A stretch of DNA of 64,000 nucleotides from an uncultured Pseudanabaenaceae cyanobacterium (lineage in GTDB: Bacteria; Cyanobacteriota; Cyanobacteriia; Pseudanabaenales; Pseudanabaenaceae), in assembly GCA_937927915.1 (NCBI GenBank), contig CALGKB010000001.1, forward strand, positions 62,001-126,000, read 5' to 3'. The position numbers and the translations under genes are program-made. The notes below the pieces were generated by a model that did no database searches, was not told where the DNA came from, and worked only from the letters and a program-made list of their open reading frames with translations. Positions 28,141 to 31,617 of the stretch are shown in pieces. How positions within the stretch are numbered: position 1 is the stretch's first letter; each line of letters begins with the position of its first letter.

Positions 28141-29937
28141 TCACGATAACACAGAAAGGGAATTTTGGCGGCTGAGATGGTGCCAGTGCCACCACACCAC
28201 TACCATAGCGATCGTGTCTAAGCGACAGTATTGTTCTAGCAACTTCTCCCACAGAGGGTCACCTTGGGCGCTGCCGTAGTGAAATTCCTGGTAGGCAAGG
28301 GCAGCTTCCATCCCCTCCTGGACCACCACCTCCCGATCGGGCAACTGATAGCGATCGAGTTGGGCATAGGGGTTAGCAATAGTTTCCTTGACGTACTCCT
28401 GCAGCCAGGGAATAGTGTGAAGGTAGGGGTTGGTCTGCCAGATGGCGGGAAAGACGCGTTTGAGGGAAGTGCGCCCTCCCATAAGGGGATGGAAATAGTA
28501 TTTGAGGGTGAGGGCATGGAGGTCTACCAGGGGCGGGAGGTGGGCAAGCCAGTCTCTCGTGGAGCGATCGGGGTGGTCCGTGCGTGCCATTTGGCTGGCA
28601 ATCTCCTTGAGGACAGTATGCTCATGCATCCCCCAACTAAACACAGTCCCCCCTGTCCCCAGGCAGTGTTTGAGGGTGCGGGCAAATTCCCAGTTGGGAA
28701 AGTCCAGTTCCAGACAAAGCCAACTGCGGTGCTGGGGCGGTTCCTGGGGGGCAAAAATGGTGTGACAACTCCATTGAAACGCCACGATCGTGTAGGGACT
28801 TAACCCCCGCCGGGGCGGCAGGGCGAGACGAGCAGTCTCAAAATCGACAAAATGAAGGGGATAGGCAAAACTGGCTAGCAGGGGACAAATGTCAGGGGAG
28901 AGCCACTCCTGGTCGTGGGCAGTGTAGTGTAACTGAATCCGCTGTCGCTGCCCGTGAAAATTCTCCTCCAGGGACTCCAGGGGTACAGCAAACATACTCG
29001 CCTGTCCCTGCTCCACCAGATGCCGCACGATCGTTTTACTGCCATTGTAGAGACGCGTGCCGTGATAGAAATCAAAGATGTGATGCTTGACCTGCGCCAG
29101 CTCCCCCCAACACTCACGGAAGCCATCCTTCTCTCCCTGCCCCCCTCTGAATTCACAATCTTTACAGTGTTTGTCAATGGGGACATGGGGTTTAGGTAGC
29201 CCCGCTGCCAACAGTTGCAGGAGGTGATTTACTTCCGGCTGGATGTCGGAGCGCACCGCCACCACTGCTTCTGTCACATCCACCCAGTTAAAGAAATCCC
29301 CCAGGGGTAGGGGGTGTCCTGGTTCTAGCTCTAACCTGACACCGCTGAAACGGGATAAAGCTTCTCCCCTGGCATGCCGATACAGCCGAAAGCCGCGATG
29401 ATAGTTATCTGCCTGGGCAACAAAGTCCCGATCGGGGAGCAACAGCAGGCATCTGGTTTCTGCCCTGGGCACCATTTCCGCCAAAACTAGCTGTTGAAAG
29501 GCTAGGGAAATAAAAACAGAGAGCCACTCGCTGTGGACTTTATGACTCCTGGGATGGCGCAGGGTTTTCCCCCCCTTAGTGGCTATGTAGATCAACTCAT
29601 ACACTTGGTCAGCCTTGCGCAGGACAAAGGGGCGAGTGACTTTCCCCCCTGCTAAGAGCACTGGTTCCCATAAATTCACCTGGGGCGCTTGCAAGAGAGA
29701 CAGGGTTAACTGGGCACCCCGCTCTAGATCAGTGCCACACTCCACCGCCACCAGGGGCTGCAAATAGGACTGAGCCAGGGCGTACATCATAAACACCCCG
29801 TCCGTCAGACACCGATCGTAGGCAGTAGTAGCGTTATTGGTGGGGTAGTTGTTCTTTTTGTAGTAAAGCTTGGTGAGACAGGAGCGAGCTAATTTGTAGT
29901 CAGATTCCGACAGCAAGTTGGATGCAGACCCTGCCAT
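28141..29937 (-). CDS. RecB-like nuclease with DUF2779 domain
   Basis: 598 residues. The N-terminus LSESDYKLARSCLTKLYYKKN is the RecB/Cas4-like nuclease opening seen in DUF2779 proteins; a Cys pair (HCKDCEF) near residue 258 may hold part of an iron-sulfur or zinc site. The C-terminal half begins with LHFVDFETARLALP (about 370), an Asp-x-Glu like DEDD exonucleases, and ends with YCRLDTIAM. Predicted DNA nuclease in the cytosol; partner unknown. Lies 36 bases downstream of the polymerase-like gene on the same strand, and 20 bases upstream of purC. Confidence 0.78.
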   Translation of the reverse strand: MAGSASNLLSESDYKLARSCLTKLYYKKNNYPTNNATTAYDRCLTDGVFMMYALAQSYLQPLVAVECGTDLERGAQLTLSLLQAPQVNLWEPVLLAGGKVTRPFVLRKADQVYELIYIATKGGKTLRHPRSHKVHSEWLSVFISLAFQQLVLAEMVPRAETRCLLLLPDRDFVAQADNYHRGFRLYRHARGEALSRFSGVRLELEPGHPLPLGDFFNWVDVTEAVVAVRSDIQPEVNHLLQLLAAGLPKPHVPIDKHCKDCEFRGGQGEKDGFRECWGELAQVKHHIFDFYHGTRLYNGSKTIVRHLVEQGQASMFAVPLESLEENFHGQRQRIQLHYTAHDQEWLSPDICPLLASFAYPLHFVDFETARLALPPRRGLSPYTIVAFQWSCHTIFAPQEPPQHRSWLCLELDFPNWEFARTLKHCLGTGGTVFSWGMHEHTVLKEIASQMARTDHPDRSTRDWLAHLPPLVDLHALTLKYYFHPLMGGRTSLKRVFPAIWQTNPYLHTIPWLQEYVKETIANPYAQLDRYQLPDREVVVQEGMEAALAYQEFHYGSAQGDPLWEKLLEQYCRLDTIAMVVVWWHWHHLSRQNSLSVLS

Positions 29938-29973: not shown

Positions 29974-31188
29974 CTACCCTTCCGCTACCTTCCTCTGCAA
30001 AGGCAACTGGAGACGGCGACTCAAGCGTGACTGCTGTAACTGTTGCATACCCGCCTCCGCAATCTCCACCGCACTCGTACCCATGCGTTGATTGACACTA
30101 TCCATCCGCCGCATTGTCGATTCTGACTGCCGCACCGCTGCCCCTAGAGGTAGGGTAGAACTCAGCCCACCACAAACTATACGCAGCTGATCATAGCTAT
30201 CTGCTACTGTAAAAGCATCCCTGAGGGCTTGTTGTGCTTGATTGACCAATTCCTGGGGGGTGTTGAGGGGAACTGGCAACTTCAACAGTGTGGTGGTAAT
30301 ATTTTGCTGCGTGGCAGTGGGATAGAGGGAAATCGCCATTAACCGCGTCACTAAGTGCTGTGCCTGCAGCTGCTGCGCCATCAGAGAGACTGTTAACCCG
30401 ATCGTTTCCTGCAACTGCTCCCACTTGGTAAGGGGCTGGGCAAATTTCCGCCAGCTCAAAATTTCCGGCACCAGAGCGGGAAAATCCGGCGGCTCCAAAC
30501 AGGAGATATTGCGCAATTCCAGGGCAAGACGCAGACCCACAACCCCCATGACTTGCCGTACCACCTGGTCATCTGCCTCTCGCAGGTCAAAAGCTGTGTG
30601 AATGCCCACCGCCCGCAGAAACTCCTTGTAGGTAGGGCTAACCCCCCACACACTCCCCACCCCCAAGCGCTGCAGCATCTCCTCCTGTAATTGCCGATTG
30701 GTAAAGTCCTTAAAGCCCAAGCAAGCCGCCATTTGGGCTAACGTGCGTGTCGGAGCAATCCCCACATGGGCGTACATCCCTGTCCCTACCTTCACTGTTG
30801 CCAACAGTTGCTCGGCTATCCAAGTCACCTTGTCCCCCCTTCGATAGTCTACGGGGTCAAACAGGGGAATAAACAGCCGACCCGGTGCCCACACTTCGAG
30901 GGGGTCACCAAAGTTTTGCAGCATCTCCTGCAGGCGTTTCATCATGTCCTGGCAGAGGAGTTCGTTGATATGATAAACTACTACTCCCTGTTGTCGTACC
31001 CGATCGGCGTAGAGAAACAAAGGGACTCCCCGCTGCAATCCCAACTGCCGCGCCTCCGCCGAGAGCGCCTGGATACATTCATTTTCATCCAGCAAAACCA
31101 CCGGCTTGCCCTCTAGGCTGGGATTGTAGTTGCGCTCACAGGTAATGTAAAAATCCCGACAAGCAACAAAAGCAAATAGGGGGGTCAT
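29974..31188 (-). CDS. Inactive Y-family DNA polymerase homologue (UmuC-like pseudo-enzyme)
   Basis: 404 residues, open throughout. FYITCERNYNPSLEGKPVVLL and SAEARQLGL match the UmuC/DinB palm, and the later thumb and little-finger regions, including MDSVNQRMG near the end, also fit UmuC. The three catalytic carboxylates are gone: motif FALxD reads FAFVACRDFY (Ala 9 in place of Asp), and YSIDEAF reads WAPGRLF (Gly 103, Arg 104 in place of Asp-Glu). Polymerase activity is therefore not expected. ImuB of other phyla is a comparable non-catalytic Y-family protein. No clear LexA box is seen upstream. Confidence 0.85.
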   Translation of the reverse strand: MTPLFAFVACRDFYITCERNYNPSLEGKPVVLLDENECIQALSAEARQLGLQRGVPLFLYADRVRQQGVVVYHINELLCQDMMKRLQEMLQNFGDPLEVWAPGRLFIPLFDPVDYRRGDKVTWIAEQLLATVKVGTGMYAHVGIAPTRTLAQMAACLGFKDFTNRQLQEEMLQRLGVGSVWGVSPTYKEFLRAVGIHTAFDLREADDQVVRQVMGVVGLRLALELRNISCLEPPDFPALVPEILSWRKFAQPLTKWEQLQETIGLTVSLMAQQLQAQHLVTRLMAISLYPTATQQNITTTLLKLPVPLNTPQELVNQAQQALRDAFTVADSYDQLRIVCGGLSSTLPLGAAVRQSESTMRRMDSVNQRMGTSAVEIAEAGMQQLQQSRLSRRLQLPLQRKVAEG

Positions 31189-31365
31189 GTTTGCTCCTCG
31201 CGGACAGCGTGACTATGTTATACCGCAGTCAGCCCCTTTGTGGTAGAACTGTAACTAGAAATCTGTCCACTTCCGTCACTAAAAGATTTGTTCACGATCA
31301 TTTCTGACACCTGATCTCCCCCACCACCTTGTAAGATAGTTTACATTCCACAAGGGCAAAGCGCT

Positions 31366-31617
31366 ATGGAGACTCCCTACATTTACTACATTCCCATCTA
31401 CCCTGACGATGACTGCAGCGAAACTCTCATGCATCTGTTCATGGGGCAGCCCGGGCTGGATAAACAGATCCTCGCACTCTTGGATGAACTCGATCGGCGG
31501 GAGCAGGCAGGGGAAGGGGTAGACTACCTCCAGGAATTGGAAGACAAACTAGGACTGAAGCGGGTGTCAGTCCATCAACTCAACCGCGATCGTAAATTTG
31601 CCCCCATCAATACCTAG
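31366..31617 (+). CDS. Small acidic protein, function unknown
   Basis: 83 residues, not recognised. It starts METPYIYYIPIYPDDDC, then has a helical Glu/Leu-rich part (LDELDRREQAGEGVDYLQELEDKLGLK). No motif points to a function. The stop codon directly abuts the stop codon of the opposing SpoIID-like gene at 31618. The 177-base gap before it, 31189-31365, separates two divergent genes and shows no structure I recognise. Confidence 0.55.
   Translation: METPYIYYIPIYPDDDCSETLMHLFMGQPGLDKQILALLDELDRREQAGEGVDYLQELEDKLGLKRVSVHQLNRDRKFAPINT

Follow-up and report, generated by a model that had tools for sequence, protein, structure and literature searches.

What can a Y-family polymerase homologue be kept for once its catalytic residues have gone? 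The question is raised by a umuC-like gene at positions 29974-31188 (minus strand) of the window, a stretch of 64,000 nucleotides on contig CALGKB010000001.1 from an uncultured Pseudanabaenaceae cyanobacterium. It is the only IMS-family gene of the genome (G000; a 2.40-Mb assembly, 98.9% complete). Inactive Y-family proteins are already known, and the groups described so far mostly pair with DnaE2. By gene content this dead UmuC cannot do so, yet it is strongly selected and is the sole Y-family protein of its genome. A natural setting is thus provided in which one can test whether UmuC has a selected function apart from DNA synthesis. In our interpretation, the sole lesion-bypass polymerase gene of a small genus of hot-spring cyanobacteria is without its catalytic site and most attachments of a polymerase, and its protein is nonetheless guarded by selection, probably for a non-enzymatic job such as RecA binding.

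Family assignment and the altered active site

The open reading frame starts with ATG, encodes 404 residues and has zero internal stops. Its product scored 74.1 bits with Pfam IMS (cut-off 23.2) and 29.1 bits with IMS_C, the little-finger domain (cut-off 20.7). The AF2 model, built with 30 sequences, had a mean pLDDT of 81, with values below 50 in the last 32 residues (373-404), and its top Foldseek matches were without exception Y-family polymerases, in agreement with the Y-family fold given by the two Pfam domains. UmuC (NF002955) was the top NCBIfam match, but with 150 bits, far short of the 431 required, the protein falls outside the curated UmuC subfamily; by sequence, the nearest solved structures were DNA polymerase IV chains. 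The frame, the Pfam domains and the top NCBIfam match bear out the first-pass annotation, which had described a UmuC-like protein with an intact 404-residue frame.

We aligned the protein to E. coli UmuC and to 65 active cyanobacterial UmuCs. The motif I aspartate (D6 of UmuC) is replaced by A9 (codon at 31162..31164, minus strand), and the Asp-Glu pair of motif III (D101-E102) by G103-R104 (30877..30882, minus strand), so the residues of an active polymerase are not in place; the alignment to E. coli UmuC agrees with the earlier reading of these positions. Motif III now reads WAPGRLF, and UmuC N8 corresponds to R11. Two invariant arginines therefore stand where UmuC has the active-site residues Asn8 and Glu102. 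The annotation had allowed that other acidic residues might occupy the metal site. No acidic replacement was found at the metal positions of the window protein, and no invariant acid aligns there in the three-species alignment, so the substitutions stand. The nearest invariant acid, D12, aligns to UmuC A9, one residue ahead of the conserved Phe-Tyr pair, and is not, by alignment, at a metal position. The tyrosine at the steric-gate position (Y14) is retained. Judged from these alignments, the loss of catalysis in the window protein is supported.

Two further species of the genus carry orthologues with intact frames. The G002 protein is 89% identical to that of the window and has Ala, Gly and Arg at the three positions. 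The protein of Cyanobacteria bacterium M5B4 (G001; PHFO01000014), handled as a Pseudanabaenaceae member from an Indian hot spring (PMC9600594), is 70% identical and has Ala, Asp and Arg. The replacements of Asp9 and Glu104 are common to all three species, while that of Asp103 is found in G000 and G002 only and therefore probably came later. The earlier statement that all three carboxylates are replaced is thus true for two of the three species, because M5B4 keeps D103. As A9 and R104 recur in intact frames in two other species of the genus, the inactivation, on present sequences, is neither a sequencing error nor the lone mutation that the annotation had considered.

A wider survey for the same substitutions had also been proposed there. 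We inspected these positions in 129 UmuCs of cyanobacteria, mostly out of a class-wide sample of 390 genomes. Asp, Asp and Glu were intact in 124 and four proteins were inactivated; A9 and R104 occurred in the three species of this one genus. The remaining UmuC (L193; G239, C383:1920-3280) has a broken or divergent N-terminus, and another copy is present on the same contig. The fourth inactivated protein belongs to another genus of the family (G004, L177:1479-2834). It has 451 residues, with Tyr in motif I and His-Ala in motif III; it is without RecA-NT and clamp motifs, and a umuD-like S24 protease gene lies 412 bp upstream. In the tree, the three genus proteins formed one clade (support 100/100, stem 2.45) with the G004 protein placed apart. 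A single origin for all four was rejected because the tree needs two changes, although G004 sits on a very long branch whose placement is unsure. The G004 protein suggests an independent inactivation elsewhere in the family, and hence that this route may have been taken more than once. All of the 80 viral UmuCs sampled were intact at the three catalytic positions, and no close relative of the dead clade was found on viral contigs.

Partner sites and the possible role

As a reference for lost sites we took the 84 columns conserved across the 65 active cyanobacterial UmuCs. Besides D6, N8, D101 and E102 of the active site, the changed columns include the lysines K143, K147 and K154 after motif III, described as triphosphate-side lysines, the basic residues K277, R279 and K342 of the little finger, Q357 and L360 of the clamp motif, and S408, T412 and W415 of the UmuD-binding C-terminal tail. 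Most of the conserved basic residues of the little finger are thereby lost, and with them its DNA-binding charge: the net charge of this domain is -2, 0 and -3 in the three genus proteins, whereas active proteins have a median of +5. The UmuC beta-clamp motif Q-L-x-L-F is missing from region 342-352 (30133..30165, minus strand), where it has been deleted relative to UmuC, and a search of the dead proteins found no QLxLF-type motif left. The annotation had proposed a check for this motif; with the motif deleted, recruitment through the clamp in the manner of ImuB is not supported.

What is left in part is a RecA-NT-like motif at residues 353-383 (30040..30132, minus strand). Pfam DUF4113, a family of the UmuC C-terminus, matched residues 359-388 of the window protein over positions 4-33 of its 51-position profile, and matched the G002 protein over the same profile positions (E = 1.4e-4 and 2.1e-4); the scores of 22.2 and 21.7 bits were just below the gathering score of 24, and the third species gave no match. 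An active relative was matched over positions 2-51, whereas the dead proteins were matched only over the RecA-NT half. With region boundaries that were set by the analyst, and a profile alignment that itself contains the dead proteins, residues 353-383 were identical between G000 and M5B4 at 27 of 31 positions, compared to 15 of 31 in the adjoining linker and tail (Fisher p = 0.002), and the RecA-NT region kept 50, 49 and 31% of the active profile score in the three species, compared to 52-68% for motif I, 62-67% for the thumb, 2-10% for the little finger and values below zero for the clamp and tail regions. Within the motif, Thr stands in place of a conserved Leu, and GxG has Ser instead of its second Gly. 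By these comparisons, no known adaptor site other than the RecA-NT motif remains, and this one in part; other regions of the protein are better kept.

Because this one adaptor site is partly retained, RecA appears to be the likeliest of the partners left. According to Timinskas and Venclovas, the N-terminus of RecA and the RecA-NT motif of UmuC are homologous; their modelling puts the motif at the 3' end of a RecA filament, where UmuC was proposed to attach by means of it (PMC6511836). Binding of ImuB to a RecA homologue requires the RecA-NT motif (PMC11791113). RecA-mediated recombination in E. coli is suppressed when UmuDC is in excess through unnaturally high expression, and mutations that confer resistance to the suppression map to the RecA surface 112-117 (PMC4374754). 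Our leading, and still tentative, suggestion is that the dead UmuC binds RecA and modulates its filament. The former catalytic subunit of Pol V, no longer a polymerase, would be kept as a non-enzymatic protein; it would bind RecA through the retained motif, sit on the exposed 3' end of the filament, as is thought for UmuC, and there limit or shape filament growth and recombination. Such a role would correspond to the anti-recombination effect already known for UmuDC, minus DNA synthesis. More generally, and with the same reserve, this may be a Y-family protein wholly outside DNA synthesis, with neither its own nor a recruited polymerase and no contact to the clamp or UmuD, which acts as a regulator of the RecA filament or through a metal-free pocket for a ligand, formed out of the former active site; LexA, too, has been lost in this lineage.

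More of the active profile survives in motif I and the thumb than in RecA-NT, and the constraint may therefore be due to some other partner. A repurposed Y-family scaffold, in which the remodelled palm (A9, R11, R104, R148) and the thumb form a new surface for a protein or ligand, the partner being neither RecA nor a translesion polymerase, seems nearly as likely to us as RecA binding. Despite the loss of catalysis, the three species show little or no variation in the former motif I region and in the stretch GMYAHVGIAPTRTLA, the thumb and motif I are the most active-like parts of the sequence, and the two invariant arginines occupy active-site positions. However, neither a partner nor a ligand suggests itself for such a surface, core packing alone could account for the conservation, and the RecA-NT stretch is also conserved between variable flanks.

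Gene content, selection and the less likely readings

Peptidase_S24, the family of UmuD and LexA, was not detected in the three genus genomes (90-99% complete), and it was present in all six other family genomes tested; UmuD and LexA are thus taken to be absent from these three genomes. Each of the three genomes has one DnaE gene, and therefore no DnaE2, and one ordinary RecA. The RecA family search gave no second match in G000 and M5B4 and one weak extra in G002; ImuA, the RecA-like partner of ImuB, can escape the RecA model.

This gene content bears on the role which the annotation had favoured, that of an ImuB-like mutasome scaffold bringing another polymerase of the DnaE2 type to the clamp. 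Like ImuB, the dead UmuC is an inactive member of the Y family and has a RecA-NT motif, kept in part, and in other lineages an association of inactive Y-family proteins with DnaE2 is frequent (PMC12926913). We nevertheless disfavour this role as unlikely, with the clamp motif deleted, a single DnaE in each genome, no second Y-family protein, no protease of the UmuD/LexA type and, in the window genome, one ordinary RecA without a second match in its family.

Less likely still is that the gene is dying, an incipient pseudogene that looks intact for the time being. Depletion of Y-family genes is common in thermophiles and cyanobacteria (PMC12926913), 23 of the 58 relatives searched gave no Y-family match, and UmuD and LexA have gone. 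Against this, the frame is intact in three species although their synonymous divergence is high (pS 0.61-0.75), and synonymous sites are saturated in the comparison with M5B4 though 70% of the residues are identical. The dN/dS of the closest pair, G000 and G002, is 0.055 for the dead umuC and 0.059 for the adjacent SpoIID gene. A 27-bp leader, TATAACATAGTCACGCTnTCCGCGAGG (31196..31222, minus strand), is also conserved directly ahead of the start codon and is the same in the three species bar one base. It occurs once per genome, always ahead of the dead umuC, and a regulon that shares it was rejected on this count; a -10 box and a ribosome-binding site are possible within it. The substitution rates and the leader show strong purifying selection on the reading frame, the fold and this gene-specific leader, and by such measures the gene is not decaying. 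The earlier view that selection has kept the fold and not catalysis is well matched by the dN/dS, the AF2 model and its Y-family Foldseek matches, and the missing catalytic residues.

A residual or altered polymerase with other metal ligands is the least credible reading, in spite of D103 in M5B4 and the steric-gate tyrosine, for all three species have lost the Asp of motif I and the Glu of motif III, no acid aligns to a metal position, Arg has been introduced at two active-site positions, K143 and K147 have become R and Q/H in the dead proteins, and the little-finger charge is lost.

Known systems and neighbouring genes

Of the known systems, Pol V is represented by UmuC, to which the window protein has full-length homology with the same domain order, its top family match and a partly kept RecA-NT motif. 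It differs from UmuC in the loss of three catalytic carboxylates (two in M5B4), of the clamp motif and of the UmuD-binding tail, in a genome without UmuD, and in its score of 150 against the cut-off of 431. Like ImuB it belongs to the Y family, is dead as a catalyst and has a RecA-NT motif, here kept in part, but by family match it is nearest to UmuC, it has no clamp motif and no ImuB-C extension, ending soon past RecA-NT, and its genome is without DnaE2. The inactive PolYs of the DnaE2B-iPolY-RecA type, such as DinB2 of Streptomyces and of Geobacter bemidjiensis, are likewise inactive Y-family proteins with predicted RecA binding; they are tied to DnaE2, which the window genome lacks, and belong to other Y-family groups (PMC12926913). 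RecX, a protein that caps RecA filaments, resembles the dead UmuC in the proposed effect on the filament 3' end only, and there is no homology. The RecX family was undetected in the window genome and in four other Pseudanabaenaceae genomes tested; the idea of the dead UmuC as a replacement for RecX was uninformative, as RecX is likewise undetected in relatives with an active UmuC. In the literature searched, a search that left most subscription papers outside, we found no description of an inactivated UmuC without DnaE2, UmuD and a clamp motif.

The neighbourhood offered no gene partner conserved across the three species. A DUF2779 gene (28141-29937, minus strand) lies 36 bp downstream of the dead umuC and is possibly co-transcribed with it in two species. 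It was rejected as a partner: minC takes its place in the third species, and DUF2779 is single-copy in each of the eight family genomes tested, among them genomes with an active UmuC and genomes with none. Membership in a defence system was rejected since PADLOC gave no match, and an SRAP partner is absent in the genus. On the other side, divergent from the dead umuC, an 83-aa ORF (31366-31617, plus strand) has no Pfam or PHROG match and is very strongly conserved in the three species, with a dN/dS of 0.019 in the closest pair.
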